Assembly (NCBI RefSeq): GCF_900110025.1
Contig: NZ_FOCE01000017.1
Coordinates: 1 to 38,927 of the forward strand
Length of the DNA: 38,927 nucleotides
Source of the DNA: Gemmobacter aquatilis
GTDB taxonomy: Bacteria; Pseudomonadota; Alphaproteobacteria; Rhodobacterales; Rhodobacteraceae
Direction of reading: 5' to 3'
The position numbers and the translations under genes were made by a program. The notes beneath the pieces were generated by a model that saw only the letters and a list, made by a program, of their open reading frames with translations, had not been told where the DNA came from and did no database searches. Below are positions 9,117 to 33,643 of this stretch, one piece after another (positions within the stretch are counted from its first letter, which is position 1; every line of letters starts with the position of its first letter).

Positions 9117-9697
9117 CAGAAAGCTTCCATCTCACTCTTTACCCGCGCCAGAAAGGCGCCGCGCTGCGCCCCGGTGGCGCGGTTCATGTCATACTGCGCC
9201 AGATAGCGCAGCTTGTCGGGCCGGGTCACATGCCACACCGCCCGGGTGACGATCTTGCGCGGCGGATCGCCCGCGCCGATCGCCCGCCAGCGCGTGCCGC
9301 CATAGGTGGTGACGGCGGCCAGCTTGCGGATATGCGTCAGGTTCGGCTTCACCAGCCCGTCTTCCAGCCGGAAGGACACGCCGGGCAGGAACACCCGGTC
9401 GAAGAACCCTTTCAAAATCGCCGGAAAGCCGAAATTCCACACCGGAAACACCAGAACCAGCGCCTGCGCCGCGCGCAACCGCTCCACATAGCCCTGCACC
9501 GGGGCGATGTTGCTGTCGGTCTCGTGATAGCCGCGCCGCTCTGCCTCGGTCAGCACGGGCGAAAAGCCTTCGGCGTTCAGGTCGCAATCATCCACCTCCC
9601 ATCCCTTGGCGGTCAGGCTGTCCACCACCGCCCGGTGCAGGCTGGCCGAAAAGCTTTCGGCGCAGGGATGGGCAAACAGCACCAGCGCCCGGCTCAT
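9116..9697 (-). CDS. Flavodoxin-fold NAD(P)H oxidoreductase (second of a tandem pair)
   Basis: A 193-residue relative of the adjacent gene with the same layout: MSRALVLFAHPCAESFSASL at the N terminus and VFPVWNFGFPAILKGFFDRV as the second signature. The ATG at 9697 overlaps the FAD-oxidase stop (ATGA); a longer reading from 9745 would add 16 residues lying inside the upstream gene and lacking the fold. The two copies have diverged strongly, so they may form a heteromer or act on different steps. Family call is solid, reaction unknown. Confidence 0.82.
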   Translation of the reverse strand: MSRALVLFAHPCAESFSASLHRAVVDSLTAKGWEVDDCDLNAEGFSPVLTEAERRGYHETDSNIAPVQGYVERLRAAQALVLVFPVWNFGFPAILKGFFDRVFLPGVSFRLEDGLVKPNLTHIRKLAAVTTYGGTRWRAIGAGDPPRKIVTRAVWHVTRPDKLRYLAQYDMNRATGAQRGAFLARVKSEMEAF

Positions 9698-11088: not shown

Positions 11089-11091
11089 GGG

Positions 11092-12354: not shown

Positions 12355-13202
12355 CAAATCTCCCGTTTGAGGGCACTTTCATGCCATTTGTGCAAAAGCG
12401 CATGGCTGAGGAAGGACAGCCCGGCAAAGATCACCACCCCGGTCGCCGCAATCAGCGCCAGTGCGGCGAACATGCGCGGGATGTTCAGCCGATACCCGGC
12501 CTCCAGAATGCGGAAGGCCAGGCCGGACCCGATCCCGCCGGTCCCCGCCACATATTCCGACACCACCGCGCCGATCAGGCTCAGCCCCCCCGCGATGCGC
12601 AGCCCGCCCAGAAAATAGGGCAGGGCGGAGGGCAGTTGCAGATAGCGCAGCCGCTGCCAGCGCGTGGCGCCATAGATGCGGAACAGATCGCGCAGGTTGT
12701 GATCCGCCGAGTTCAGCCCCAGCGTGGTGTTCGACAGGATCGGAAAAAACGCCACCAGCCAGGCGCAAAGCAGCAGGCCGATCATGCGGTTTTCGACATA
12801 GATGAAGATCAGCGGCGCGACAGACACCACCGGCGTCACCTGCAAGATCACCGCGAAAGGATAGAACGACATTTCCGCAAAACGGCTCTGGTTGAACAGC
12901 ACCGCCAGCCCCACGCCACCCGCCACCGCCACCGCCAGCGCCATCAGCGTGATCTGCAACGTCACCAGCAGCGCATCGAACAGGATCGCCCAATCCTTGA
13001 TCAGCGTCTGCGCCACCAGCCCCGGCCCGGGCAAGATGTAGTGGGGGATCTCATTCCACACCACCACCCGGTCCCACAACAGGATCGCCAGCCCGATGGT
13101 CAGCACCGGCAGCAGCCAGCGCCCGATCCGGTCGATCTGCCGCGCGCGGGCGCGTTTCTGTTCTTCGGCGTCCAGCAGCGGAATGGGGTCGGCGATGCTC
13201 AT
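12354..13202 (-). CDS. ABC transporter permease (SsuC/TauC/ThiX type)
   Basis: A 282-residue inner-membrane protein with about six helices, beginning after a charged cytoplasmic stretch (EEQKRARARQIDRIGRW). The EAA-like coupling loop is LPSALPYFLGGLRIAGGLSL. It belongs to the BPD-transport group that works with NMT1/THI5-type binding proteins for sulfonates, nitrate, pyrimidines and thiamin precursors. The ATG at 13202 overlaps the ATPase stop (ATGA). Only one permease gene is present, so a homodimer is expected. Confidence 0.9.
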   Translation of the reverse strand: MSIADPIPLLDAEEQKRARARQIDRIGRWLLPVLTIGLAILLWDRVVVWNEIPHYILPGPGLVAQTLIKDWAILFDALLVTLQITLMALAVAVAGGVGLAVLFNQSRFAEMSFYPFAVILQVTPVVSVAPLIFIYVENRMIGLLLCAWLVAFFPILSNTTLGLNSADHNLRDLFRIYGATRWQRLRYLQLPSALPYFLGGLRIAGGLSLIGAVVSEYVAGTGGIGSGLAFRILEAGYRLNIPRMFAALALIAATGVVIFAGLSFLSHALLHKWHESALKREI

Positions 13203-13993
13203 GCCGCATCCCCCATCGCCTGATGCAAGGCGCCCGAGGCTTCGCGGCACAGCGCCGCATAATCGGCCGAAGTGCGGAAATCCTCGCCGCGCGGATAGGG
13301 CGCATCGACCGCCAACTCCCGATGCACCCGGCCCGGACGCGCCGCCATCACCACGATCCGATCCGACAGGAACACGCTTTCAAACACCGAATGGGTGACA
13401 AAGATCACCGTGCAGCCGATCTTGGCGCGCAGTTCCAGCAGATCGTTGTTCAACTTGTGGCGGGTGATCTCGTCCAGCGCTGCGAAGGGTTCATCCATCA
13501 GGATCAGCCGGGGCGAGGTGACCAGCGCGCGGGCAATCGACACCCGCATCTTCATCCCGCCCGACAATTCGCGCGGATAGGCGTCCTCGAACGCCTCCAG
13601 CCCCACCAGCTTCAACGCCAGCCGGATCTGATCGCGCACCGCCACAAAGCTTTTGCCGCGCAGCCGGTAGGGCAGCCAGACATTGTGCGCCACCGTGGCC
13701 CATGGCATCAGCGTCGGTTCCTGAAACACCACGCCCAGATCGCCCGCTTCCTGCCCGCCCGCCCAGGTGATCGCCCCCGCCGTCGGGTGCATCAGCCCGG
13801 CAATCAGCCGCAGCGCCGTGGATTTGCCGCACCCCGACGGGCCAAGGAGCGAGATGAAATCGCCCTCGTTCACCGTCAGGTTCATGCCCTGAAGCGCCAC
13901 GGTCTGGCCGTTGAACACCTTGTTCACCCCGGCCATGCGCAGGATTTCGGGCCGCGCGCCCATCGGTTTGATCTTGCGCCAGGTGGTCGCCAT
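13199..13993 (-). CDS. ABC transporter ATP-binding protein (SsuB/TauB/ThiZ type)
   Basis: About 264 residues with complete motifs: Walker A GPSGCGKST, signature LSGGMKMRVSIARAL, Walker B LILMDEPFAALD and the switch histidine in FVTHSVFES. It powers the adjacent permease. The start is uncertain. An ATG at 13993 is used; GTG at 14047 lies inside a hairpin, and an ATG at 13963 (MGARPEIL) also fits the fold. The gene follows the binding-protein gene after a GC-rich hairpin, an arrangement that usually lowers ATPase expression relative to the binding protein. Confidence 0.9.
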   Translation of the reverse strand: MATTWRKIKPMGARPEILRMAGVNKVFNGQTVALQGMNLTVNEGDFISLLGPSGCGKSTALRLIAGLMHPTAGAITWAGGQEAGDLGVVFQEPTLMPWATVAHNVWLPYRLRGKSFVAVRDQIRLALKLVGLEAFEDAYPRELSGGMKMRVSIARALVTSPRLILMDEPFAALDEITRHKLNNDLLELRAKIGCTVIFVTHSVFESVFLSDRIVVMAARPGRVHRELAVDAPYPRGEDFRTSADYAALCREASGALHQAMGDAA

Positions 13994-14016
13994 GCGGGGC
14001 ACTCGTTTGGGAAAGG

Positions 14017-14042
14017 GCAGGGCGGGCAGAACCCCGCCCTGC
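14017..14042. terminator. Intercistronic hairpin downstream of the binding-protein gene
   Basis: GCAGGGCGGG (14017-14026) pairs perfectly with CCCGCCCTGC (14033-14042) over a 6-base loop. On the minus transcript it lies immediately after the binding-protein stop and before the ATPase. In ABC operons such stems usually stabilise the upstream message or partly terminate, keeping the binding protein in excess. Confidence 0.65.
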
Positions 14043-14048
14043 AACACC

Positions 14049-15038
14049 TTACTTCTTTAGATCCATGCCGACGCCCTTGCCGACAAAGCTCAGATCAATC
14101 GCCTTGGAATAATCCAGATCCGCCGGCACCACGCCCGCCGTCGCCATCTTGTCGAAGAAATCCTTGATCTTCGCCTCGGTCATCACACCCACGCCCAGCG
14201 TCAGCGCATCGCCCGAATCCACGATCCCCGCCTCTTTCATCTTTTCGATGCCATAGGCGATCTGCTCGTCGTTCATGTCAGGATTGTCTGCCTTGATCAT
14301 GGCGTTGGCAGCAGCGTTGTCGCCATAAAGGTAGGTATACCACCCCTTGATCGACCCATCGACGAAGCACTTCACCTGTTCGGGCTTCTTGGCCACCGTG
14401 TCGGCCATCGTCTCGATCAGCGTCGAATAGGTGGAATAGCCCGCATCGGCCAGCAGGAAGACATCGGGTTTGAACCCGCCTTCCTTTTCCACCATCAGCG
14501 GCTCGGACGACAGATAGCCCTGCATCGCCACGCCCTCATCCGCGATGAACGGCGCGGGGTTGAACGTATAGACCTCGCGCTGTTCGGGGGTGAAGCCATA
14601 GGCCTTGATCATCCACTGGTAATAGCTGGCATAGCCTTCGTCGCCGATCAGCAGCTTCAGGCCCTTGAGGTCTTCAAACGTCTTGGCCTTGCCCGGATGC
14701 GTCAGAATGACCTGCGGTTCCTTCTGGAAACTCGCCGCCACCGCCACCACCGGTACGCCTTCGGCCGCAGCCGAGAAGGTGCCCAGCAGGTTGCCGCCCA
14801 TGTTGTAATCGATCTTCCCCGCCAGCATCAGCGCGCGGTTGTTCACCTGCGGCCCGCCCGGCATGATCGTCACATCCAGCCCGCAGGCCGCATAGGTGCC
14901 ATCCGCGACGGCCTGATAGAAGCCGCCATGTTCGGCCTGTGCCAGCCAGTTGGTGCCAAAGGTCACCGGCTCGTTGGCCAGTGCCGCAGTCGCCGTGCCG
15001 CACAGGCACAGGGCGAGGGTCGTTGCCGTTTTCCGCAT
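14049..15038 (-). CDS. ABC transporter substrate-binding protein, NMT1/THI5-like
   Basis: A 329-residue periplasmic protein with signal peptide MRKTATTLALCLCGTATAALA. The mature start VTFGTNWLAQAEHGGFYQAV followed by VTIMPGGPQVN matches the NMT1/THI5-like family, which binds pyrimidine precursors of thiamin and other small aromatic or cyclic nitrogen compounds. It is first in an eight-gene operon (binding protein, ATPase, permease, CodA-like deaminase, FAD oxidase, two flavodoxin-fold enzymes, creatininase-like). It therefore probably defines the operon substrate. Weak Shine-Dalgarno aggga precedes the ATG at 15038. Confidence 0.9.
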   Translation of the reverse strand: MRKTATTLALCLCGTATAALANEPVTFGTNWLAQAEHGGFYQAVADGTYAACGLDVTIMPGGPQVNNRALMLAGKIDYNMGGNLLGTFSAAAEGVPVVAVAASFQKEPQVILTHPGKAKTFEDLKGLKLLIGDEGYASYYQWMIKAYGFTPEQREVYTFNPAPFIADEGVAMQGYLSSEPLMVEKEGGFKPDVFLLADAGYSTYSTLIETMADTVAKKPEQVKCFVDGSIKGWYTYLYGDNAAANAMIKADNPDMNDEQIAYGIEKMKEAGIVDSGDALTLGVGVMTEAKIKDFFDKMATAGVVPADLDYSKAIDLSFVGKGVGMDLKK

Positions 15039-15289
15039 GTTTGTTCCCTGTCGGTTGATTCTGTTTTCCTCAGGGTAGGTGCGTGCGGGGCCGCGTCATG
15101 GGGCGCCGGTCATACGCCTGCAAATAATCCTTGCAGGTGCTGAATTGCTGGGCGCTGATTTGACTGTGCGGTTAAAAAATCAGCTTCCCGCATTTTTTCC
15201 TGCTAAAACCAGTCAGCCATGCGCTGCCTTCCTATACTTTAGGTCAGGTTGTCGGCCTTCTGGCCACCTGCCCCATACCAAGGTCACCT
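15039..15289. promoter_or_regulatory. Divergent promoter region between the ABC/deaminase operon and the RidA gene
   Basis: This 251-base non-coding region separates two divergent starts. An AT-rich core (about 15165-15205) contains ggttaaaaaatcagc and cattttttcctgctaaaacc. TATACT at 15233-15238 could be the -10 element for the rightward gene, but no good -35 is seen at the right spacing. No regulator gene lies adjacent. Confidence 0.35.
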
Positions 15290-15688
15290 ATGTCCGAAAC
15301 GCCCCGGATGCTTGTCCCCGCCACGATCCGCCCGCCCTTCGGGCGCTATGCCCATGGCGTGGAACTGCCGCCCGGGGCGCGCGTGGTGATGACCTCAGGC
15401 CAGCTTGGCCTTGGCCCCGATGATGTGGCGCCGCCCGATGTTGCGGCGCAGGCCCGGCTCTGCTTTGCCAACTGCACCGCGATTCTGGCCGAGGCGGGCA
15501 TGGCCCCCGCCGATGCCGTCCGCATCGTGGCCTATGTCACCGACCGCGCCCATATGGCCGCCTATATGGCGGTGCGCGATGAATGGCTGGCCGGGGTCAG
15601 CCGCTTGCCGGTCTCCACCCTCGTCATCGTCTCCGGCTTCACCCGCCCCGAATTTCTGGTCGAGGTCGAGGTGACCGCCGCCCGCTGA
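15290..15688 (+). CDS. RidA/YjgF/RutC-family protein
   Basis: A 132-residue single-domain Rid protein, about the standard length. The C-terminal active-site segment FTRPEFLVEVEVTAAR has the Rid-type Arg, Pro and final V-E positions. Rid proteins hydrolyse reactive enamines/imines or, as RutC in uracil degradation, help release amino-acrylates. It is divergent from the deaminase/creatininase operon, so I infer it handles an unstable nitrogen intermediate there. A general housekeeping RidA role is possible, but the N terminus (MSETPRMLVPATIRPPFGRY) differs from canonical RidA. Confidence 0.85.
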   Translation: MSETPRMLVPATIRPPFGRYAHGVELPPGARVVMTSGQLGLGPDDVAPPDVAAQARLCFANCTAILAEAGMAPADAVRIVAYVTDRAHMAAYMAVRDEWLAGVSRLPVSTLVIVSGFTRPEFLVEVEVTAAR

Positions 15689-15691
15689 CCG

Positions 15692-18565
15692 CTACCCTTT
15701 CGGGCCGAAATCCGGCGGGGGCCCGGTCAGCACCTGATGCAGCTTCAGCGCCAAATCCTGCCGCCGATAGGGCTTCGACAGCAAATGCAACCCCGGGTCC
15801 AGCCGCCCGTGATGCACGATCGAATTCTCGGTATAGCCCGAGGTGAACAGCACCCGCAGTTCCGGCCATTCGGCACAGGCGCGTTCCGCCAGCAGGCGCC
15901 CGTTCAACTCGCCCGGCATCACCATGTCGGTGAACAGCAGCGCCACATCCCCCGCCGCGCGGATCGCCAGCAGCGCCGCATCGCCATCCGCCGCCGCCGT
16001 CACCCGGTAGCCCAGACTTTCCACCAGCCGCTGCACATGGCCACGCAGCGCAGGGTCGTCTTCGGCCACCACCACATGTTCGCCACGGCCCATCGGTATG
16101 GCCACAGCCGGGGCCAGATAGGGCGTGCTGCCTCTGCCTTCAAACTGGCCGCGGGGCAGATACAGGCTGACCGTCGTGCCCTGACCAAGCTCCGAATAGA
16201 TGTTCACATGCCCGCCCGACTGGCTGGCAAATCCATGCACCATCGACAGCCCGAGACCCGAGCCCTTGCCTGCAGGCTTGGTGGTGAAAAACGGATCAAA
16301 GGCGCGCGCCAGCACCTCGGGCGGCATCCCCACCCCGGTATCCGACAAAGCGATGCGCAGATAGGCCCCCGCCCGCACCCCCGGATGTTTGGCGGAATAG
16401 GCGGAATCCAGATGCACATTCGACATCTCGATCATCAATTGCCCACCTTCCGGCATTGCATCGCAGGCGTTCAGCGCAAGGTTCAACAGCGCCGTCTGCA
16501 ACTGGCTCGGGTCCGCCTCCACCGGCGACAGGCCCGGCGGCGTTACCAGCCGCAGCGTGACATAGGCGGGCAGGGTGCGCGCCAGCATCCGTGTCAGTTC
16601 GGCCAGCACGTCCGAAGGCTCCAGCATCCGGGGCTGCAAGGGCTGGCGCCGCGCGAAGGACAGCAGGCTGCGCACCAGATCGGCGCCGCGCTCCGCCGCC
16701 TGCACCACCGCCTCGGCCAGTGCCTGCTCGGTCTCTGATCCCGCCGCCGCCGCCAGCAATTCGGCATTGCCGACGATCACTGTCAGCAGGTTGTTGAAAT
16801 CATGCGCTACCCCGCCGGTCAGCTTGCCCACCGCCTCCAGCTTCTGCGCCTGATGCAGCCGGTCCACCGCCTCGCTCGCCGCCGTCACATCCTCCATGGA
16901 CCCGATGACGCGGAACGCCTCGCCCGAGTCGTCACGCAGCGCGCGCGCCCGGTCGCGCACCCGGGCATAGCTGCCATCGCCGCAGCGAAAGCGGTATTCG
17001 GCCCGCCAGTCATCCTGCCGCCCGGCAATGAAGGCCCGAAACTGCCGCGCGATCATCGTGCGGTCATCGGGGTGTATGGCGTTTTCCCAATGGGTCAGCC
17101 GGGGGTTCACCCCCTCCCAGTCATGCCCGAAAATGCCGCGCATCCCTTCCGACCAGCTGACCGTGGCGGCCCGAAGGTCCACATCATAGATCGCATCCGC
17201 CGCCACATGCAGCAGCGCGCGCAACCGCTCGCCCTCTTCGCGCAACCGCGTCACATCGACGATCGAACCGATGATGCGCAGCAGATTGCCCGCCGCATCG
17301 CGCTGCGCCAGCGCCCGGTCGATCACATGGGCGATGCTGCCATCGCCGCGCCGCACCCGATAGGCATATTCCCAGCGCGGGATCTTTTCCGCCAGCGCCG
17401 CGTCACGCAACGCGGCAATGCGCGGGTAATCCTCGGGGTGGATCGCCGCGCGCCAACTGCCCGGCCCGGTCGCATTGGCCCGCGGGTCCAGCCCGAAATG
17501 CGTCGCATAATTCTCGGATCGCCAGATCTGCCCGCTGTCCGGCGACCAGTCATAGATCACATCGGGCGAGGCTTCTGCCGCCAGCCGAAACCGCTCCTGC
17601 CCCTCGCGCAGCGCGGTGATATCGACGATGGAGCCGACACTGCGCGCCGGGCGGCCATCGGCATGGCGCAAAAACCGCATCCGCCCGATGACATGGGCAT
17701 AACTGCCGTCCGCCCGCGCGAAACGGTATTCTTCAGACCATGTTTCCGCCCCAGCCGCCAGCGCCGCCGCGCGGCTGTCCACCAGCCGGGCCCGGTCGTC
17801 CGGGTGCACCAGACTCAACCAGAACGTCACGCCGCCCCGCCCCGCCGCAGGGGTATGGCCATAGCGGGTTTCCAGCGCATCGCTCCACCAGTTTTCGCCG
17901 CTGTCGCAGTCGAAGATGAACAGCACGTCATGCGCCGCCGAAGTCGCCAGATGGAACCGCGCCTCCGCCTCGTGCATCGCGCTGATGTCGATCATCGCGC
18001 CGACCATGCGCCGCGCCGCGCCGCTGGCATCGCGCAGCAGGTAGCCCCGGTCAATCACATGCGCCAGCGTGCCATCTGCCCGCAGCAGCCGATAGCTTTC
18101 CTCCCAGACCTCGCGCTCCTGCGGCGCGACCGTGCCCACCTGCCCGGTCATCCGGGGGCGATCTTCCGGGTGCAAGCGCGCCAGCCAAGCATCCACATGC
18201 CCCGGAAACACCGCCGGGTCATAGCCGAAGGGCGTGCCGCCCTCGCAGGCCCATTCCAGCGCGCCGCTGCCCATGTCCCAGTCGAACACCGTCAGCCCGG
18301 CAGCGCGCGCCGCCAGCCGAAAGCGGCTGGCCGGGCCGGTGATGCCCACCACCGCAGGCGCCTCGCCCGCGCCCCATGGCACCGGCTGGCGCTGCAGCGT
18401 CAGGTCTGCCATCTGCGCCCCGCGCGCCTCCAGCTCCGCGATCTCCAGCCCTGCGCCAAGCCCAAACGCCTGCGCCGCCCGGTTGGCATGGATCACCCGC
18501 GCCGCAGTGGGATCAAGAACCCAGATCGGTAGGCCGAATCTGTCCAGAAGCTCTGCCGTTGCCAT
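15692..18565 (-). CDS. Soluble hybrid histidine kinase with five PAS domains and a C-terminal receiver
   Basis: A protein of about 957 residues with no membrane helix, so probably cytoplasmic. Order: a short PAS (about 3-60), four PAS_3-type units each with HPED/HPDD and a W-x-x-x-Y-R...DG...V.DR PAC signature (about 82-196, 202-318, 325-440, 448-562), HisKA with H588 in GGVAHDFNNLLT, ATPase with NLALNACDAM, DTGVGM and GSGLGLSMV, then a receiver with D880 in LLFTDMVMPG. H-x-FNN kinases of this class often signal through their own receiver. ATG at 18565 is used; GTG at 18595 would add ten residues. No DNA-binding partner lies adjacent. It is divergent from urtA; any link to urea uptake is speculative. 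Confidence 0.9.
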   Translation of the reverse strand: MATAELLDRFGLPIWVLDPTAARVIHANRAAQAFGLGAGLEIAELEARGAQMADLTLQRQPVPWGAGEAPAVVGITGPASRFRLAARAAGLTVFDWDMGSGALEWACEGGTPFGYDPAVFPGHVDAWLARLHPEDRPRMTGQVGTVAPQEREVWEESYRLLRADGTLAHVIDRGYLLRDASGAARRMVGAMIDISAMHEAEARFHLATSAAHDVLFIFDCDSGENWWSDALETRYGHTPAAGRGGVTFWLSLVHPDDRARLVDSRAAALAAGAETWSEEYRFARADGSYAHVIGRMRFLRHADGRPARSVGSIVDITALREGQERFRLAAEASPDVIYDWSPDSGQIWRSENYATHFGLDPRANATGPGSWRAAIHPEDYPRIAALRDAALAEKIPRWEYAYRVRRGDGSIAHVIDRALAQRDAAGNLLRIIGSIVDVTRLREEGERLRALLHVAADAIYDVDLRAATVSWSEGMRGIFGHDWEGVNPRLTHWENAIHPDDRTMIARQFRAFIAGRQDDWRAEYRFRCGDGSYARVRDRARALRDDSGEAFRVIGSMEDVTAASEAVDRLHQAQKLEAVGKLTGGVAHDFNNLLTVIVGNAELLAAAAGSETEQALAEAVVQAAERGADLVRSLLSFARRQPLQPRMLEPSDVLAELTRMLARTLPAYVTLRLVTPPGLSPVEADPSQLQTALLNLALNACDAMPEGGQLMIEMSNVHLDSAYSAKHPGVRAGAYLRIALSDTGVGMPPEVLARAFDPFFTTKPAGKGSGLGLSMVHGFASQSGGHVNIYSELGQGTTVSLYLPRGQFEGRGSTPYLAPAVAIPMGRGEHVVVAEDDPALRGHVQRLVESLGYRVTAAADGDAALLAIRAAGDVALLFTDMVMPGELNGRLLAERACAEWPELRVLFTSGYTENSIVHHGRLDPGLHLLSKPYRRQDLALKLHQVLTGPPPDFGPKG

Positions 18566-25247: not shown

Positions 25248-26165
25248 TCACCACGCCAGCAATTCCTCTTCGCGCCAGCCGCTCACCGCCTGCACCAGCC
25301 AATCCCGAAACGCCACCAGCGGTGGATAGCCCTCGGCGCTCAGCGGCCAGACGAGGTAATAGCTGCCCCGGCTCGGCACCGGCCCGCCCCAGACATCGAC
25401 CAGCCGCCCCTCGGCCAGTTCGGTCTTGGCCAGAAATTCCGGCAGCAAGGCCACGCCCATGCCATAGATCGCCGCCTGAATCATCGCCGCGAACTGGTCG
25501 AACAGCATCCCCAGCGGCACCGCCTCGGCCACCCCGTGATGCGCGAACCAGTCGGACCAGGCGGCGGGCCGCGTTTCCAGTTGCAACAGCGGCAGCCCGA
25601 CCAGATCGCGCGGCCCCGCCACCGGATGGCTGGCCAGAAAGCCCGGCGCGGCGCAGGCCACCATCTTTTCGTCGAACAGCCGCGCAAAGCCCGCCTCGGG
25701 CCAGGTCGCCTCGCCGAAATGGATCGCGGCGTCGAACCCCTCTTCCGCGAAATCGAACGGCCGCAGTCGCGTGCCCAGATTGATCGTCACCCCCGGATGC
25801 GCCGTCAGGAAATCCGGCAGCCGTGGCGCCAGCCAGCGCGTGCCAAAGGTCGGCAGGATCGAAAGCGCCAGTGTCCCGCCCCCCGGCGTCGAGCGCACCC
25901 GCATCGACGCGCGCGAGATCAGGTCCATCGCCTTGGCCACATCGCGCGCATAGGCCAGCGCGTTTTCCGTCGGCACCAGCCGCCGCCCCTCGCGCCGGAA
26001 CAGTTGCACGCCCAACTGCGCCTCCAGATTCTGGATCAACCGGCTGACCGCGCCTTGTGTCAGGTTCAGGTCATTGGCCGCCGCCAGCGTCGATCCGGTG
26101 CGGATCACCGATTCGAACGCTGCAAGCAGGCTGACAGAGGGCAGCAAGCGCCGGGGGGTGGCCAT
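25248..26165 (-). CDS. LysR-family transcriptional regulator (GcvA-like), candidate regulator of the gcdH operon
   Basis: A 305-residue LysR protein. The N-terminal helix-turn-helix (about 8-65) reads LAAFESVIRTGSTLAAANDL and TQGAVSRLIQNLEAQLGVQL. The GcvA-type features are the PSVSLLAAFE start and the effector-domain phrase FGTRWLAPRLPDFL. It is divergent from gcdH with a 103-base gap holding a T-N11-A dyad, so it probably controls gcdH and itself. GcvA-like regulators often flank glutaryl-CoA dehydrogenase in Rhodobacterales. The ligand may be glutarate or a CoA ester (inferred). Confidence 0.88.
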   Translation of the reverse strand: MATPRRLLPSVSLLAAFESVIRTGSTLAAANDLNLTQGAVSRLIQNLEAQLGVQLFRREGRRLVPTENALAYARDVAKAMDLISRASMRVRSTPGGGTLALSILPTFGTRWLAPRLPDFLTAHPGVTINLGTRLRPFDFAEEGFDAAIHFGEATWPEAGFARLFDEKMVACAAPGFLASHPVAGPRDLVGLPLLQLETRPAAWSDWFAHHGVAEAVPLGMLFDQFAAMIQAAIYGMGVALLPEFLAKTELAEGRLVDVWGGPVPSRGSYYLVWPLSAEGYPPLVAFRDWLVQAVSGWREEELLAW

Positions 26166-26268: not shown

Positions 26269-27477
26269 ATGGCACTGAAACCGAAAGACGCCCCCGATCT
26301 TGGTCGCTTCGACTGGGAAGACCCCTTCCGCCTGCGCGACCAGTTGACCGAGGAAGAGCGGATGCTGGCCGACGCCGCCCGCGCCTATGCGCAGGAAAAG
26401 CTGCAACCCCGCGTCATCAAGGCCTTCGCCAACGAAGAAACCGACCCGGAAATCTTCCGCGAAATGGGCGCGATGGGCCTGCTCGGCGTCACCGTGCCGG
26501 AAGAATACGGCGGCATCGGCGCCTCCTACGTCGCCTATGGCCTCGTGGCGCGGGAAGTGGAGCGGGTGGACAGCGGCTATCGCTCGATGATGTCGGTGCA
26601 GTCCTCGCTCGTGATGTATCCGATCTACGCCTATGGCTCGGAAGAACAGCGCAAGAAATACCTGCCGAAACTGGCCTCGGGTGAATATATCGGCTGCTTC
26701 GGCCTGACCGAACCCGATGCCGGCTCCGATCCGGCGGGGATGAAGACGGTGGCGCGTAAAACCGCCAATGGCTACGTCCTCAACGGCGCCAAGATGTGGA
26801 TCTCCAACAGCCCGATCGCCGATGTCTTCGTCGTCTGGGCCAAATCCGAGGCGCATGGCGGCAAGATTCGCGGTTTCGTGCTGGAAAAAGGCATGAAAGG
26901 TCTCTCGGCACCGAAGATCGGCGGCAAGCTCTCCCTGCGGGCTTCGGTGACCGGCGAGATCGTGATGAAGGATGTGGAAGTGGGCGAAGACGCGCTGCTT
27001 CCGAATGTCGAGGGGCTGAAAGGCCCGTTCGGCTGCCTCAACCGCGCCCGCTATGGCATTGCCTGGGGCGTGATGGGCGCTGCCGAATTCTGCCTGCACG
27101 CCGCCCGCCAGTATGGGCTGGACCGCAAGCAGTTCAACAAGCCGCTGGCCGGCACGCAGCTTTACCAGTTGAAACTGGCGAACATGCTGACCGAAATCTC
27201 GCTGGGCCTGCAAGCCGCCCTGCGCGTCGGTCGCCTGCTGGACGAGGCCAATGCCGCGCCCGAGATGATCTCGATCATCAAGCGCAACAACTGCGGCAAG
27301 GCGCTGGACGCCGCCCGCTGGGCCCGCGACATGCACGGCGGCAACGGTATCTCGGAAGAATTCCAGGTGATCCGCCACATGGTGAACCTCGAAACCGTGA
27401 ACACCTATGAAGGCACGCATGACGTGCACGCCCTCATCCTCGGCCGCGCCATCACCGGCGTGCAAGCCTTCTTCTGA
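26269..27477 (+). CDS. gcdH: Glutaryl-CoA dehydrogenase
   Basis: A 402-residue FAD acyl-CoA dehydrogenase that oxidatively decarboxylates glutaryl-CoA to crotonyl-CoA in lysine and tryptophan breakdown. The family marks are strong. [20 protein letters not shown] carries the glutaryl-carboxylate-binding arginine (R105). [14 protein letters not shown] and [17 protein letters not shown] follow. The catalytic base is E381 in [18 protein letters not shown]. It resembles human GCDH over these blocks (recalled). It is first in the plus-strand cluster and divergent from the LysR gene. A large inverted repeat follows the stop. Confidence 0.95.
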
Positions 27478-27480
27478 TCT

Positions 27481-27512
27481 TTCATCCTGGTAAAAATACT
27501 CCCGCCGGAGGC
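27481..27512 (-). repeat. Dispersed intergenic repeat, copy 2 (left arm of an inverted pair)
   Basis: The complement reads gcctccggcgggagtatttt followed by taccaggatgaa. It begins 4 bases after the gcdH stop. With copy 3 (27533-27564) it forms an inverted repeat with 29 of 32 positions paired around a 20-base loop. Confidence 0.85.
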
Positions 27513-27532
27513 GCCCGGCGGTGCCACCTGAC

Positions 27533-27564
27533 GCCTCCGGCGGGAGTATTTGGGCCAGGATGAA
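27533..27564 (+). repeat. Dispersed intergenic repeat, copy 3 (right arm of an inverted pair)
   Basis: Reads gcctccggcgggagtatttg followed by ggccaggatgaa. Only three adjacent bases (ggg against tta) break its pairing with copy 2. The stem would separate gcdH from the E1-fusion gene and could terminate or process the message. It ends 22 bases before the next gene. Confidence 0.85.
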
Positions 27565-27586
27565 GCTGCAAAGGACAAGACCCGGC

Positions 27587-29779
27587 ATGGATCGCGCCGA
27601 CATCGTTCACGACAATTTCCTGCGGCGTCTCGCCACGCGGGACTTCAGCCATGGCCGCGCTCCTTCGGGGGCGTTTTCGGCGTTTCAGGGGGTGGAAATC
27701 TACCGCGCCGCCTGCCTGTCCCGCGCGCTGGATCGGCAAAGCCGCGTGATGCAGCGGGCAGGGCAGGGGTTCTACACCATCGGCTCTTCGGGGCACGAAG
27801 GTCTGGCTGCCGTGGCCGCCGCCCTGCGCCCGACCGACATGGCCTTCCTGCATTACCGCGACGCCGCCTTCCAGATCGCCCGCAGCCAGCAGGTGCCGGG
27901 CCAGAGCATCGCCTGGGACATGCTGCTTTCTTTCGCGGCCTCCTCCGAAGACCCGATCTCGGGCGGGCGGCACAAGGTGCTGGGCTCAAAAGCGCTGGCC
28001 ATCCCGCCGCAAACCTCCACCATCGCCTCGCATCTGCCCAAAGCCGTGGGCGCCGCTTATGCCATTGGCGCCGCCCGCCGCCACCGCCCCGAACATGCCG
28101 AATTGCCGGAAGACGCCATCGTCTATTGCAGCTTCGGCGATGCCTCGGCCAACCATTCCACCGCGCAGGGCGCCTTCAACACGGCGGGCTGGACCTCCTA
28201 TCAATCCATCCCCCTGCCGCTGCTGTTCTGCTGCGAGGATAACGGCATCGGCATTTCCACCAAGACCCCCAAAGGCTGGATTGCCGCAGGCTTCCAGCAC
28301 CGCCCCGGGCTGAAATATTTCGCCTGCGACGGGCTGGATATCTTCGACACCTACGCCACCGCGCAGGAAGCCGCGCATTACGTCCGCACCCGGCGCAAGC
28401 CCGCGTTCCTGCATATCCGCACGATCCGGCTGTATGGCCATGCCGGGGCCGACATGCCCACCACCTATCTCCCGCGCGAGGAGGTGGAGGCGGAAGAGGC
28501 GCAAGACCCGCTGCTGCACATGGCCCGCCAGCTTGACGCCGCAGGCGCGCTGCCCGCGTCCGAGGCGCTGGCGATCTATACCGAAACCAACGCCCGCGTC
28601 GCCCGCATCGCCGCCGAGGCCGTCACCCGCCCGCGCCTGCGCACGGCTGCCGATGTCATGGCGGCGCTGATCCCGCCCAAACGCACCTGCAAGCCGACCA
28701 ACGGCCCGGCCCCCGAGGCGCGCGAGGCCGCCTTCGGCAGCGACATGAAACAGATGAATGACCCGCAGATCATGTCACGGATCATCAACTGGGCGCTGAC
28801 CGATCTGATGCTGGATCACCGCGAAATCGTGATGATGGGCGAGGATGTGGGGCGCAAGGGCGGCGTTTACGGCGTCACGCAAAAGCTGCAACAGCGCTTC
28901 GGCCCGGATCGGATGATCGACACGCTGCTGGATGAACAGTCCATCCTCGGCCTTGCCATCGGCATGGCGCAGAACGGCTTCGTGCCCATGCCGGAGATTC
29001 AGTTCCTCGCCTATCTGCACAATGCCGAAGACCAGTTGAGAGGAGAGGCCGCGACGCTGCCCTTCTTCTCCAACGGTCAATATACCAATCCGATGGTGCT
29101 GCGCATCGCGGGGCTGGGGTATCAGAAGGGCTTTGGCGGGCATTTCCACAATGACAACTCGGTCGCCGTGCTGCGCGACATTCCGGGGCTGATCCTCGCC
29201 TGCCCGTCGAACGGCGCGGATGCGGCGAAAATGCTGCGCGAATGCGTGCGTCTGGCGCGGGAAGAACAGCGGGTCGTTGTCTTTCTCGAACCTATCGCGC
29301 TCTATCCGATGCGCGATCTGCATACCGACAAGGATGGCGGCTGGATGTGCCGCTACCCCGCGCGGGACGAGGTGATCGCGCGGGGCGAGGTTGGCATCCA
29401 TGGCGCGGGCGACGATCTGGCCATCGTCACCTTCGGCAATGGCACCTATCTCAGCCGTCAGGCCGAACCGCTGCTGGCCGCGGCGGGGATCAAGACCCGC
29501 ATCATCGACACGCGCTGGCTGTCGCCCCTGCCGAAAGCGGCGTTGACGGCGGCGGTGCAGGGGGCCAAGCGCATCCTGATCGTCGATGAAACCCGCCACA
29601 CCGGCGGCCTTGCCGAGGCGTTCATGGCGCATTTCCATGAAACCGCTCCCGGCGTGCCCTTGGCCCGGCTGACCGCCGAAGACAGTTTCATCGCCACCGG
29701 CCCGGCCTATGCCGCCACCATGCCGTCGCGCGACAGCATCGTGACCGCCGCCAAGGCACTGATGGAGGCCGCGCAATGA
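27587..29779 (+). CDS. Thiamin-diphosphate 2-oxoacid dehydrogenase E1, alpha and beta fused
   Basis: A 730-residue fusion. The alpha part (1-370) has the ThDP motif G184-D185-A...E217-D218-N219, ASHLPKAVGAAYAIGAAR and RLYGHAGADMPTTY. The linker spans about 370-390. The beta part (390-730) has GEDVGRKGGVYGVT, DEQSILGLAIGMAQNG, GFGGHFHNDNS and TRWLSPLP. The fold matches branched-chain/2-oxoisovalerate E1, decarboxylating a 2-oxoacid onto an acceptor. By context the substrate may be 2-oxoadipate. No E2 or E3 gene is present in the window. ATG at 27587 follows aaagga. The stop overlaps the next gene (ATGA). Fold call strong, substrate inferred. Confidence 0.88.
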   Translation: MDRADIVHDNFLRRLATRDFSHGRAPSGAFSAFQGVEIYRAACLSRALDRQSRVMQRAGQGFYTIGSSGHEGLAAVAAALRPTDMAFLHYRDAAFQIARSQQVPGQSIAWDMLLSFAASSEDPISGGRHKVLGSKALAIPPQTSTIASHLPKAVGAAYAIGAARRHRPEHAELPEDAIVYCSFGDASANHSTAQGAFNTAGWTSYQSIPLPLLFCCEDNGIGISTKTPKGWIAAGFQHRPGLKYFACDGLDIFDTYATAQEAAHYVRTRRKPAFLHIRTIRLYGHAGADMPTTYLPREEVEAEEAQDPLLHMARQLDAAGALPASEALAIYTETNARVARIAAEAVTRPRLRTAADVMAALIPPKRTCKPTNGPAPEAREAAFGSDMKQMNDPQIMSRIINWALTDLMLDHREIVMMGEDVGRKGGVYGVTQKLQQRFGPDRMIDTLLDEQSILGLAIGMAQNGFVPMPEIQFLAYLHNAEDQLRGEAATLPFFSNGQYTNPMVLRIAGLGYQKGFGGHFHNDNSVAVLRDIPGLILACPSNGADAAKMLRECVRLAREEQRVVVFLEPIALYPMRDLHTDKDGGWMCRYPARDEVIARGEVGIHGAGDDLAIVTFGNGTYLSRQAEPLLAAAGIKTRIIDTRWLSPLPKAALTAAVQGAKRILIVDETRHTGGLAEAFMAHFHETAPGVPLARLTAEDSFIATGPAYAATMPSRDSIVTAAKALMEAAQ

Positions 29780-30825
29780 CTTCACAGACCCAACGGAAAA
29801 CCGCCGTCCTCATCTGCCCCGGGCGCGGAACCTATACAAAATCGGAACTTGGCAGCCTGAAACGCCATTTCCACGACGCGGCGCTGCTGGCCAATTTCGA
29901 CGCGCGCCGCAAGGCCGCCGGGCAGGAAACCCTGACCGCGCTGGATGGCGCCGCCACCTATTCCGTGGCGAAACATTCGCGCGGCGACAACGCCTCGGCG
30001 CTGATCTATGCCTGCACGCTAGCCGATGCCCGCGCGGTGCAAGGCGTTGATGTTGTTGCCGTCACCGGCAATTCGATGGGCTGGTATTCCGCACTGGCCT
30101 GCGCCGGGGCGCTGACCCCTGAAGGCGGGTTCGATGTGGTCAACACCATGGGCACGCTGATGCAGCAGCACCTGATCGGCGGGCAGCTCATCTACCCGTT
30201 CGTGGATGAAGATTGGGCGCCAAACCCCTTGAAAAAGGCCGAACTTCTGGCGCTGGTGGCGCAGATCGCCACCCGGCCCGGTCATGCGCTTGCCCTGTCC
30301 ATCGACCTGGGCGGGATGCTGGTTCTGGCGGGGAACGAGGCCGGATTGGCCGCGTTCGAAGCCGCCGTGCCGCCGTTGCAAACCCGCTTCCCGCTGCGGC
30401 TGGCCAATCACGCGGCCTTCCACACCGCGCTGCAAGCCCCCGTCGCCGCCGAAGGCCGCACCCGCCTGTCGCCCGCCCTGTTCGGCCCCCCCAAGCTGCC
30501 GCTGATCGACGGGCGCGGCCATGTCTGGTGGCCAGGCGCCACCGATCCCGCCGCGCTGTGGGATTATACGCTGGGCCATCAGGTCACCGAACCTTACGAT
30601 TTCACCCGCGCCATCACCCATGCCGCGCGGGAGTTTGCCCCCGATCTGTTCATCGTTACCGGCCCCGGCACCACGCTGGGCGGGGCCGTCGCGCAATCGC
30701 TGATCCTTGCGGATTGGCGCGGGATGCGCTCCAAATCCGATTTCCAGCGCCACCAGAATGCGGCCCCGATCCTTGTCTCCATGGGCATGGATACGCAACG
30801 GGCCCAGGTCACCAACGGAGACTGA
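29776..30825 (+). CDS. FabD-like acyltransferase of unknown substrate
   Basis: A 349-residue protein with the malonyl-CoA:ACP transacylase fold. The N terminus AVLICPGRGTY replaces the usual FPGQGSQ. The nucleophile is S100 in TGNSMGWYSAL (GxSxG), and the catalytic His is probably H216 in NHAAFHTAL. The position matching the malonate-binding arginine (R117 of E. coli FabD, in RGKLMQ) is Met125 here (MGTLMQ), so malonate is an unlikely substrate. No acyl carrier protein or fatty-acid gene is near. It is translationally coupled to the E1 fusion and 1 base before the aminoadipate-semialdehyde dehydrogenase. It may move the acyl group made by E1 or edit an acyl intermediate. Real function unknown. 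Confidence 0.8.
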   Translation: MTSQTQRKTAVLICPGRGTYTKSELGSLKRHFHDAALLANFDARRKAAGQETLTALDGAATYSVAKHSRGDNASALIYACTLADARAVQGVDVVAVTGNSMGWYSALACAGALTPEGGFDVVNTMGTLMQQHLIGGQLIYPFVDEDWAPNPLKKAELLALVAQIATRPGHALALSIDLGGMLVLAGNEAGLAAFEAAVPPLQTRFPLRLANHAAFHTALQAPVAAEGRTRLSPALFGPPKLPLIDGRGHVWWPGATDPAALWDYTLGHQVTEPYDFTRAITHAAREFAPDLFIVTGPGTTLGGAVAQSLILADWRGMRSKSDFQRHQNAAPILVSMGMDTQRAQVTNGD

Positions 30826-30826
30826 C

Positions 30827-32326
30827 ATGACCCACACCGCAACCCTTACCGCTGCGGGCCTGACCCCGGCCGAAATCACCGGCGGCACGCTGGCCGTGCA
30901 TTCGCCCATCGACGGCGCGCTGGTCGCCCATGTGCATGAAACCAACCCGGCCGACATGCCCGCGATCATCGCGCGCTCCGTTTCGGCGTTCAAAGCCTGG
31001 CGCACCGTGCCCGCGCCGCGCCGGGGCGAACTCGTCCGCCTGCTGGGCGAAGAACTGCGTGCCGCCAAGGCCGAACTCGGCGCGCTGGTGACGCTGGAGG
31101 CGGGCAAGATCACCTCCGAAGGTCTGGGCGAAGTGCAGGAGATGATCGACATCTGCGATTTCGCCGTCGGCCTGTCGCGCCAGATCTATGGCCTGACCAT
31201 CGCATCGGAACGCCCCGGCCACCGCATGATGGAAACCTGGCACCCGATGGGGCCGTGCGGCGTCATCTCTGCCTTCAACTTCCCGGTGGCCGTGTGGTCG
31301 TGGAACGCCGCGCTGGCGCTGGTCTGCGGCGATCCGGTGATCTGGAAACCGTCCGAAAAAACCCCGCTCACCGCCATCGCCTCGATGAAGATCATGGACC
31401 GCGCACTGGCCCGCTTTGGCGATGCGCCCGAAGGTCTGGTGCAACTGGTCATCGGCGGCCCGGCAATCGGCGAGGCGCTGGTCGCCTCGAAAGACGTGCC
31501 GATCCTGTCGGCCACCGGCTCCACCCGCATGGGCAGCATCGTCGGCCCGAAGGTCGCCGCCCGCTGGGGCCGCCCGATCCTCGAACTCGGCGGCAACAAT
31601 GCGATGATCGTGGCGCCTTCCGCCGATCTGGATATGGCGGTGCGCGCCATCGTGTTTTCCGCCGTCGGCACCGCAGGCCAGCGCTGCACCTCGCTGCGCC
31701 GCCTGATCGCGCATCACTCGATCCGCGCCGATCTGGTCGCCAAACTGGCCAAGGCCTATGCCAGCCTGCCCATCGGCGATCCGCGCCGTGCCACCACGCT
31801 GATCGGCCCGCTGGTCGATCACGGCGCCCGCGACCGGATGCTGGCGCAGCTTGAAAAGGCCCGGGCCGAAGGTGGCACCGTCCATGGCGGCGCCACGGTC
31901 ACCGAAGGCGTGCCGCAGGGCGGCGCCTATATCGCCCCGGCGCTGGTCGAAATGCCCACGCAAACCGATACCGTGCGCGAAGAAACCTTCGCCCCGATCC
32001 TTTACGTTCTGGGCTATGACACGCTGGACGAGGCCATCGCCCTGCAAAACGACGTGCCGCAGGGCCTGTCGTCCTGCATCTTCACTCTGAACCTGCGCGA
32101 GGCGGAAACCTTCCTCTCTGCCGCAGGGTCGGATTGCGGCATCGCCAACGTGAACATCGGCCCTTCGGGCGCCGAAATCGGCGGGGCCTTCGGCGGCGAG
32201 AAGGAAACCGGCGGCGGGCGTGAAAGCGGCTCGGATGCGTGGAAGGGCTATATGCGCCGCCAGACCAACACCATCAACTATTCCGCCCAACTGCCGCTGG
32301 CCCAAGGCGTGAAGTTCGACTTCTGA
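30827..32326 (+). CDS. Alpha-aminoadipic semialdehyde dehydrogenase (ALDH7/antiquitin type)
   Basis: A 499-residue NAD-dependent aldehyde dehydrogenase. Catalytic cysteine is C287 in TAGQRCTSLRRL and the general base E253 in LELGGNNAMIV. GQRCTS-RRL and GGAFGGEKETGGGRESGSDA are characteristic of the ALDH7A1 branch, which oxidises aminoadipate semialdehyde to 2-aminoadipate. It also fits the neighbouring lysine-type enzymes. ggag precedes the ATG at 30827. A hairpin follows the stop. Other aldehydes are possible substrates, but context favours lysine breakdown. Confidence 0.88.
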   Translation: MTHTATLTAAGLTPAEITGGTLAVHSPIDGALVAHVHETNPADMPAIIARSVSAFKAWRTVPAPRRGELVRLLGEELRAAKAELGALVTLEAGKITSEGLGEVQEMIDICDFAVGLSRQIYGLTIASERPGHRMMETWHPMGPCGVISAFNFPVAVWSWNAALALVCGDPVIWKPSEKTPLTAIASMKIMDRALARFGDAPEGLVQLVIGGPAIGEALVASKDVPILSATGSTRMGSIVGPKVAARWGRPILELGGNNAMIVAPSADLDMAVRAIVFSAVGTAGQRCTSLRRLIAHHSIRADLVAKLAKAYASLPIGDPRRATTLIGPLVDHGARDRMLAQLEKARAEGGTVHGGATVTEGVPQGGAYIAPALVEMPTQTDTVREETFAPILYVLGYDTLDEAIALQNDVPQGLSSCIFTLNLREAETFLSAAGSDCGIANVNIGPSGAEIGGAFGGEKETGGGRESGSDAWKGYMRRQTNTINYSAQLPLAQGVKFDF

Positions 32327-32335
32327 ACCACAACA

Positions 32336-32360
32336 CCCGGCGGGCAGATCGCCCGCCGGG
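32336..32360. terminator. Hairpin after the aldehyde dehydrogenase gene
   Basis: CCCGGCGGGC (32336-32345) and GCCCGCCGGG (32351-32360) form a perfect 10-bp stem with loop agatc, 10 bases after the stop. It suggests the last gene of the cluster has its own promoter in 32361-32471 or is expressed at a lower level. Confidence 0.7.
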
Positions 32361-32471
32361 TCGTCAATCTGACGAGAAAACACGTCACTTCTGGCACTCT
32401 GTCCGGCGAAACTGGCGCAGCCGCCCCCTAGGGTGGGCGCATCAACACCACGCGCAAGGACAAGAAAACCA

Positions 32472-33551
32472 ATGTCGTTCAACAGGATCGCCGTGCTCGG
32501 CCTCGGCAAGGTCGGCCATCTGGCCGCGGAACTTCTGGTGCAAGGCGGCTTCACCGTCACCGGCATCGACGCCCGCCCCACCACGGCCCCCTTCGCCACC
32601 AAAACCGTCGATCTCAGCGACCCCGCCGCCCTGAAAGCCGCGCTGGACGGGCAAGAGGCCGTGCTGTCCTGCCTGCCCTATCACCTCAATATCGGCGTCT
32701 CCACCGTCGCCCATGGCCTTGGCCTGCACTACTTCGACCTGACGGAAGACGTGCCCACCACCAAACATATCCGCGAACTCTCCAAGACCTCCAAGGGGCT
32801 GATGGCGCCGCAATGCGGCCTCGCCCCCGGCTTCGTCGGCATCGTCGCCGCCGATCTGGCCAACCAGTTCGAGACCGTCCGCTCGATCAAGCTGCGCGTC
32901 GGCGCGCTGCCGCAGAACCCGACGGGGCTGCTCGGCTATGCCTTCAACTGGTCGCCCGAAGGCGTGGTGAACGAATATCTCAACGATTGCGAGGTGATCG
33001 AGGAAGGCGTGCTGAAAACCGTCTCCGCGATGGAATGGACCGAGGCGATCTTCATCGACGGGATGCAGCTGGAAGCCTTCACCACCTCGGGGGGCTTGGG
33101 CACGATGTGCGAAACCTATCTGGGCCGGATCGAGAACCTCGATTACAAGACCATGCGCTATCCGGGCCATGTGAAGCTGATGAATTTCTTCTTCCACGAG
33201 CTGCTGATGCGCGAAAACCGCGCCGAGGCCGGGCGCATCCTGACCAATGCCAAGCCGCCGGTGGACGAGGATGTGGTCTATGTCCATGTCGCCGCCGAAG
33301 GCAAACAGAACGGCCAGTTGCGCCGCAAGGAATTCGTGCGCGCCTATTACCCGATTGAAATCGGCGGCAAATCCCGCACGGCGATTGCCTGGACCACCTC
33401 CGCCTCGGTTGTCGCGGTGATCGAGATGGTCCGCGCCGGGGCGCTGCCGAGCCAAGGGTTCCTGAAACAGGAAGACATCCCGCTGGCCCCCTATCTGGCC
33501 ACCCCCACCGGCAGCCACTACCAGACCGGCCACCGCGCCCGCCACGCCTGA
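32472..33551 (+). CDS. Saccharopine dehydrogenase-family enzyme (saccharopine or lysine 6-dehydrogenase)
   Basis: A 359-residue NAD(P)-binding protein. The Rossmann motif is VLGLGKVGHLAAELL at the N terminus, then LSCLPYHLN, QCGLAPGFVGIVA, FTTSGGLGTMCET and KTMRYPGHVKLMN, all typical of this family. Two readings fit: glutamate-forming saccharopine dehydrogenase, which needs a separate lysine-ketoglutarate reductase, or lysine 6-dehydrogenase, a same-family enzyme of similar length that makes aminoadipate semialdehyde directly from lysine. No reductase gene is here. Start ATG at 32472 follows aagga. Product feeds the aldehyde dehydrogenase next door. Confidence 0.83.
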   Translation: MSFNRIAVLGLGKVGHLAAELLVQGGFTVTGIDARPTTAPFATKTVDLSDPAALKAALDGQEAVLSCLPYHLNIGVSTVAHGLGLHYFDLTEDVPTTKHIRELSKTSKGLMAPQCGLAPGFVGIVAADLANQFETVRSIKLRVGALPQNPTGLLGYAFNWSPEGVVNEYLNDCEVIEEGVLKTVSAMEWTEAIFIDGMQLEAFTTSGGLGTMCETYLGRIENLDYKTMRYPGHVKLMNFFFHELLMRENRAEAGRILTNAKPPVDEDVVYVHVAAEGKQNGQLRRKEFVRAYYPIEIGGKSRTAIAWTTSASVVAVIEMVRAGALPSQGFLKQEDIPLAPYLATPTGSHYQTGHRARHA

Positions 33552-33620: not shown

Positions 33621-33643
33621 GTGAGTATTTGCGCCAGGGTGAA
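33621..33643 (+). repeat. Dispersed intergenic repeat, copy 4
   Basis: gtgagtatttgcgccagggtgaa differs at three positions from the core of copy 3 (gggagtatttgggccaggatgaa). It lies 30 bases from the end of the M23 peptidase gene, again between genes. Confidence 0.7.

Follow-up and report, generated by a model that had tools for sequence, protein, structure and literature searches.

A gcdH-linked gene cluster in Gemmobacter aquatilis: a probable lysine-to-crotonyl-CoA module with a candidate 2-oxoadipate dehydrogenase E1

The window analysed here, a stretch of 38,927 nucleotides from Gemmobacter aquatilis, carries at positions 26269-33551 five genes on the plus strand in the order gcdH, a fused E1alpha/E1beta 2-oxoacid dehydrogenase component (hereafter E1), a FabD-like acyltransferase (AT), an ALDH7-type dehydrogenase (Pcd) and a saccharopine-dehydrogenase-family gene (LysDH). 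A LysR-family regulator gene (25248..26165, minus strand; HTH_1 and LysR_substrate both over cut-off) lies upstream and is divergent from gcdH, and a relative of it is retained in many related genomes. A preliminary description of this DNA had named these five genes and the regulator, all of which we found again, and the coupling by ATGA that it had read between the second and third genes is real, the E1 stop overlapping the AT start at 29776-29779. The E1 start is most likely ATG 27587 rather than GTG 27521, and aligned relatives share that methionine; Pcd starts at ATG 30827 and the last gene at ATG 32472.

GcdH (26269..27477; 402 residues) aligns almost end to end with solved glutaryl-CoA dehydrogenases (1siq and 3gnc, at E about 1e-170 to 1e-180), and its stretches DSGYRS and NTYEGTHD, of which we take the Arg and the Glu to be substrate-binding and catalytic residues, are identical to those of the 3gnc enzyme; the Desulfo-type NCBIfam model NF045552 scored 221.7 bits, under its cut-off of 470. 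Pcd (30827..32326; 499 residues), which has solved Pcd and ALDH7 relatives, scores 808.3 bits with NF050084, the NCBIfam equivalog model for L-piperidine-6-carboxylate dehydrogenase, whose cut-off is 730, in keeping with a role as L-piperidine-6-carboxylate/2-aminoadipate semialdehyde dehydrogenase. The product of the last gene (32472..33551; 359 residues) contains the Pfam domains Sacchrp_dh_C and Sacchrp_dh_NADP, and its nearest long solved match is 3abi (365 residues), which we take to be an archaeal lysine dehydrogenase, although only residues 6-238 align and the similarity is weak (E 1.4e-13). Because of this match and the size of the protein, lysine 6-dehydrogenase is probably a better name for it than saccharopine dehydrogenase. 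The preliminary description had the last two families yield 2-aminoadipate from lysine; of these, the saccharopine-dehydrogenase-family gene is better read as LysDH. Some E1-bearing genomes (G232, G260, G272, G342 and those of loci L027 and L061) have another LysDH subtype, which shares 39-41% identity with that of the window.

E1 (27587..29779; 730 residues) joins E1_dh, Transket_pyr and Transketolase_C in a single chain, all over the Pfam cut-off, and these three domains were the only ones that Pfam gave, with no domain architecture of the 2-oxoglutarate dehydrogenase (OGDH) type. Residues G184-D185..N219-G220, H285, E419, H519 and H521 are invariant in alignments of 12 and of 20 sequences; the first group is presumably the thiamine-diphosphate motif, and the three histidines are presumably catalytic. 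The genome of G. aquatilis has a separate OGDH-like E1 gene of 990 residues (locus L147, 5928-8900), which adjoins sucB and lpd as labelled by eye. The AlphaFold model of E1 was poor (pLDDT 68.8) and was left unused, so that no pocket residues are assigned. A search of phages returned 10 distant matches, all below 60% identity, and the five listed are in unannotated records. A Nonomuraea record likewise has no annotation at the relevant place.

The AlphaFold model of AT (29776..30825; 349 residues; pLDDT 92.6, pTM 0.91) has the FabD fold according to Foldseek, with a best E of 1.2e-17 and with TM scores (by query length) of 0.66-0.73 for FabD entries. Identity to structures is 15-23% among the 50 Foldseek matches listed, nothing in Pfam exceeds its cut-off (PF00698 reaches 16.1 bits against 32.7), and scores fall under the curated cut-offs for FabD (TIGR00128; 40 against 260.9 bits) and MdcH (TIGR03131; 55.4 against 297.9). 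Alignment to FabD shows that Ser100, His216 and Gln269 are retained, whereas Met125 stands at the position of the FabD arginine that, we assume, holds the malonyl carboxylate, and the FabD loop GQGSQ is replaced by GRGTY, with Arg17. All five residues (R17, S100, M125, H216 and Q269) are invariant in 22 sequences. Since the Ser, His and Gln are kept and the Arg is replaced by Met125, AT can be expected to have kept acyl-transfer or hydrolase activity, though probably not on malonyl. AT thus shares with FabD and MdcH the fold and the Ser-His-Gln set, and differs from them in its low identity, its sub-threshold scores and its substitutions at these two sites.

To follow the neighbourhood of E1, one genome from each of 84,980 species was scanned and the best 80 of 140 relatives were kept, a selection biased to close relatives. 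AT follows E1 in 75 of these 80 loci, and one of the other five lies at a contig edge; among 88 AT-bearing loci the AT start is no more than 21 bp from E1 in 79. Neighbour counts come from the 57 of them that have 5 kb or more on either flank, within 6 kb of E1 and at identity thresholds of 35-60% by gene; they omit L111-L119 and L130-L146, which were chosen for lacking Pcd or AT, and L105, a shorter copy of L146. Within these limits the neighbours were AT (54 loci), Pcd (39), GcdH (28), a class I/II aminotransferase (27), LysDH (21) and a DAO-type oxidase (13), and at least one of GcdH, Pcd and LysDH was present in 45 of the 57. The recurrent order is LysR, divergent from aminotransferase - GcdH - E1 - AT - Pcd - LysDH, or the same with the DAO-type oxidase replacing LysDH; in Ruegeria AD91A, for example, an aminotransferase, an acyl-CoA dehydrogenase, E1 and an 'ACP S-malonyltransferase' (that is, for acyl carrier protein, ACP) are annotated in a row. 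At 60% identity, relatives of GcdH, Pcd and LysDH were found in 42, 55 and 23 of 113 E1 loci, respectively, whereas none held a relative of any of ten further G. aquatilis frames for acyl-CoA dehydrogenases or biotin carboxylases, which served as a control. The arrangement recurs in many genera and hence is not due to chance. A possible pipecolate oxidase feeding the 2-aminoadipate branch is mentioned for Phaeobacter inhibens (PMC5653290), and by analogy the DAO-type oxidase of the E1 loci may have a pipecolate oxidase-like role.

Two loci show GcdH and Pcd without the intervening E1-AT (L129 of G319, which reads LysR-GcdH-Pcd, with a LysR protein 68% identical to the window's and with HglS at a different locus of that genome, and L120 of G259), a pattern that would fit either loss of the E1-AT block or a state before its insertion. 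At another set of loci, in Cypionkella and Pseudorhodobacter (L026, L028, L031, L042 and L055, with L017 cut at a contig end), E1-AT stands by a divergent block, c18-c19-c16, that resembles taurine catabolism by eye, and no GcdH or Pcd match was found at those loci.

Because a class-wide sample contained E1 in just 5 of 230 genomes, too few for the purpose, co-occurrence was examined in a sample of the family, 120 genomes with one per genus, in which E1 was found in 44, AT in 26, Pcd in 31, LysDH in 16 and HglS in 2. E1 is present in 15 of the 16 genomes with LysDH (Fisher p 5.8e-7) and in 21 of the 31 with Pcd (p 6.3e-5), and Pcd is present in 17 of the 26 with AT (p 1.2e-6); E1 is found in each of the 13 genomes that combine LysDH with Pcd, and AT in 10 of them. 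The sampled genomes are related by descent and the Fisher values therefore overstate the evidence. Similar values were obtained without the G. aquatilis genome. In two drafts (G323 and G336) LysDH-Pcd lies on a separate contig from GcdH-E1, and the association of E1 with LysDH-Pcd thus goes beyond physical linkage. AT itself is tied to E1, since all 26 of its matches (E 1e-50 or better) adjoin E1. Among genomes with an untruncated E1 (G250, with a partial E1 match, was excluded from tests within this group), Pcd or LysDH occurs in 19 of the 26 with AT as against 3 of the 17 without it (p 0.0005). These neighbourhoods and co-occurrences bear out the preliminary reading of a lysine-to-crotonyl-CoA cluster, and they lend support to its proposal that E1 and AT would bridge 2-oxoadipate and glutaryl-CoA.

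In a phylum-wide sample E1 was found in 29 of 398 genomes; of the 22 outside the family, 20 loci were used (G627 and G485 were omitted), 16 of them from other classes. In those 16, GcdH (68-73% identical to the window's) lies on the same strand no more than 350 bp upstream of E1 in seven, and within 4 kb in 11, the additional four being 48-51% identical and less surely GcdH. AT follows E1 in six of the 16; the 16 as a whole gave no LysDH match and only a single distant aldehyde dehydrogenase match (32%). In Shewanella GcdH lies 411 bp upstream of E1 and AT comes next; in Legionella E1 is followed by an acyl-CoA dehydrogenase (52%). At least five of the non-alphaproteobacterial loci have a different kind of LysR gene near GcdH-E1, two of them Pfam-confirmed. 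Conserved neighbourhoods without lysine genes, which the preliminary description had regarded as evidence against its reading, do exist outside Alphaproteobacteria, but GcdH often still adjoins E1 there, which points to the glutaryl-CoA step. Because GcdH stays near E1 in other classes without lysine genes, the widest link of E1 is to GcdH and so to glutaryl-CoA. In L193 and L194 (family f179) and L198 (f200) a gcdH-like gene (48-51%), a GNAT-like gene, a glutathione-transferase-like gene and E1 follow one another without AT (the second and third labelled by eye), with an extra opposite-strand gene intervening in L198.

Neither an E2 nor an E3 is encoded with E1. The 113 E1 loci (2.09 Mb; at least 5 kb on both flanks in 81, many of the others being short-flanked) were searched by tblastn with the E2s, the lipoyl protein and the Lpd of the G. 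aquatilis genome, the glycine-cleavage H protein not being among the queries, and no E2 was found near E1 in 112 of them; matches to Lpd were limited to L119 and a far-off homologue (33%) in L041. A further 20 distant E1 loci gave no E2 or Lpd match. The sole exception, L119 (G338; 8573-18481), has E1-AT convergent with lpd-sucB-sucA, an adjacency that is suggestive, no more. The G. aquatilis genome contains just three E2 catalytic genes, in sucA-sucB-lpd (OGDH), a pyruvate dehydrogenase (PDH) set and an acetoin-type set (names partly by eye). Since neither component is encoded with it, E1 would depend on a resident complex for both lipoyl domain and E3, with sucB/lpd as the likeliest source. 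The earlier suggestion that the bridge works without the usual E2/E3 enzymes was therefore half right: no E2 is nearby, but three E2 genes and lpd are present in the genome and could be borrowed, and E1 often occurs without AT. The acetoin-dehydrogenase-like locus (L149, 4134-7898, C19 of the G. aquatilis genome) encodes, as identified partly by eye, a lipoate-ligase-like protein, a short E2 catalytic domain (229 residues) and a free lipoyl protein (about 109 residues), the last of which may serve E1 as an acceptor.

From gene families, active-site conservation, linkage and co-occurrence, all of them read from sequence, we infer the substrate of E1, the borrowing of E2/E3 and the role of AT, and we consider it probable that the cluster is a lysine-to-crotonyl-CoA module in which E1 would act on 2-oxoadipate with a borrowed lipoyl domain and E3, and AT would be accessory, acting on a glutaryl thioester. 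In such a pathway LysDH would convert lysine to 2-aminoadipate semialdehyde, which would cyclise to piperideine-6-carboxylate; Pcd would convert the semialdehyde or its cyclic form to 2-aminoadipate; and an aminotransferase, whose gene is beside the cluster in many relatives and not here, would give 2-oxoadipate. E1, with thiamine diphosphate, would then decarboxylate 2-oxoadipate and pass the glutaryl group to a lipoyl domain and thence to CoA, and GcdH would convert the resulting glutaryl-CoA to crotonyl-CoA. The favoured role for AT would be to relieve the borrowed lipoyl domain of its glutaryl group, which would pass to CoA via an acyl-serine at S100; off-loading is favoured because the host E2 would be tuned to another acyl group. 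We know of no FabD fold that performs acyl-lipoyl:CoA transfer. For E1 itself the likeliest identity is that of the E1 component in a bacterial 2-oxoadipate dehydrogenase with an origin apart from the OGDH type.

Several observations weigh against this reading. The sequence of E1 is closest to E1s of the pyruvate/branched-chain type and not to those of the OGDH/DHTKD1 type, and one E1 match (G295) and three of the 26 AT matches each carry one stop within the matched stretch. Pcd is missing, at the threshold used, from 23 of the 44 genomes with E1 and from nine of the 26 with AT; conversely, eight of the 31 genomes with Pcd lack both E1 and HglS. None of GcdH, Pcd and LysDH was found in 12 of the 57 neighbourhoods, the cluster lacks a Pcd match in two Gemmobacter loci (L010 and L012), and outside the family no match to GcdH lies near E1 in nine of the 20 loci. 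The best match in the G. aquatilis genome to the neighbouring aminotransferase of the relatives is 47% identical and is located elsewhere. For AT, the proposal that R17 binds the glutaryl carboxylate is a guess, and the gene is missing from 17 of the 43 family genomes with an untruncated E1 (18 of 44 if G250 is included). On a tree of 113 E1 proteins, the presence of AT requires at least 14 changes, seven of them forced by well-supported branches, and so AT has been lost or gained often. The strong form of the proposal, in which AT universally replaces E2, was rejected, its absence being scattered over the E1 tree; AT is, as judged from this distribution, an accessory and not a universal E2 replacement.

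The same distribution bears on what AT does. An E1 that still acts on 2-oxoadipate could be accompanied by an AT with no part in forming glutaryl-CoA, serving instead as an editing hydrolase or as a glutaryl-CoA:ACP transferase that clears misloaded ACP or lipoyl carriers. We hold this to be possible though somewhat unlikely: the frequent absence of AT, the persistence of GcdH-E1 linkage without it and the retention of Ser, His and Gln, but not of the FabD Arg, would suit such a function, whereas the tight spacing of AT and E1, the adjacency of every AT match in the family to E1, and the enrichment of Pcd or LysDH in genomes with AT fit better with a role related to flux. In a further reading, E1 and AT together would form a dehydrogenase system without an E2 of its own, in which a host lipoyl domain (of OGDH, of PDH or of a free protein) is glutarylated by E1 and AT moves the glutaryl group to CoA; we think it unlikely that AT carries the reaction to this extent.

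The other rivals concern E1. Its nearest solved relatives are of the PDH or branched-chain 2-oxoacid dehydrogenase (BCKDH) type, and none of the three E2 genes of the G. aquatilis genome stands beside an obvious separate BCKDH E1 (partly by eye), as might be expected if E1 were a branched-chain 2-oxoacid (or other) dehydrogenase component and its adjacency to gcdH incidental. Nevertheless, the linkage is to GcdH, Pcd and LysDH and does not extend, at 60% identity, to the other acyl-CoA dehydrogenase and biotin-carboxylase frames, which makes this explanation improbable. Very improbable is a non-oxidative decarboxylation, in which E1 would release glutarate semialdehyde or glutarate and a later CoA-transferase would make glutaryl-CoA. 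The near-universal lack of an E2 gene by E1 would agree with it, as would a CaiB-like gene (so labelled by eye) near E1 in L084 and L135, but no CoA-transferase gene is among the recurrent clusters of 84 neighbourhoods, and the E1alpha/E1beta fold and the histidines are as in E1s that acylate lipoyl groups.

Mammalian DHTKD1 is an OGDH-type 2-oxoadipate dehydrogenase E1 that shares its E2 and E3 with OGDH. The window's E1 would resemble it in the proposed reaction and in the proposed borrowing of a resident E2/E3, but is of the pyruvate/branched-chain type with alpha and beta fused, and because the E1 types differ, its function would be of separate origin. Two papers concern DHTKD1 (PMC9367764, PMC8146983). 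The known bacterial solution, HglS (DUF1338, PF07063), is described as a 2-oxoadipate dioxygenase-decarboxylase of bacterial lysine breakdown (PMC7286885). HglS has in common with E1 the (proposed) substrate 2-oxoadipate and adjoins a Pcd gene in both family genomes that contain it (G268 and G319), but it is oxygen-dependent and yields D-2-hydroxyglutarate and no glutaryl-CoA. Both genomes have Pcd and lack E1, the direction expected of an alternative to E1, although with a sample of two this is not significant (Fisher p 0.53). No HglS match was found in the G. aquatilis genome or in G259. In Ruegeria pomeroyi, SPO0234 (lysine dehydrogenase) and SPO0235 (aminoadipate semialdehyde dehydrogenase) are listed as reannotated by function (PMC4334477). 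This pair, with consecutive locus tags there, represents two enzyme kinds in common with the window; by contrast, the Ruegeria loci L027 and L061 have a LysDH that shares only 40% identity with that of the window.

In most of the family sample the step after 2-aminoadipate is without a named dedicated gene, as HglS is found in two of the 120 genomes against 31 for Pcd and 16 for LysDH. A dedicated E1, if confirmed, would close this gap at 2-oxoadipate, both here and in other classes, would put right labels such as 'thiamine pyrophosphate-dependent enzyme' and 'ACP S-malonyltransferase', and would be relevant to strains for the production of glutarate and 2-aminoadipate. If AT replaced the catalytic domain of E2, it would be a new case of acyl handover to CoA in 2-oxoacid dehydrogenases, and an E1-AT system without its own E2 would amount to an independent invention of 2-oxoadipate dehydrogenase. 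Among the titles and abstract openings listed from the open-licence literature, none assigned 2-oxoadipate to a fused E1 or to a FabD-like protein; a mention is possible in Neshich et al. 2013, reportedly a survey of lysine in bacteria (cited in PMC4334477).

Finally, we refer to a cluster because a single five-gene operon is doubtful. A palindrome (27481..27564; arms of 41 nt, 85% complementary) splits gcdH from E1, and a G+C-rich hairpin (32335..32361) in the gap between Pcd and LysDH precedes the last gene, so that one transcript of all five genes is not assured; the terminator scan that returned the hairpin gave 9 sites overall against 7.0 in shuffles. The palindrome also holds a dispersed genomic repeat, GAGTATTTGNNCCAGNNTGAA (present within 27481-27564 and at 33623-33643), of which the G. 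aquatilis genome has 36 exact copies against 0 for the backwards pattern. The right arm of the palindrome ends with one copy of GAGTATTTGNNCCAGNNTGAA, and the left arm is a near-inverse of the motif.

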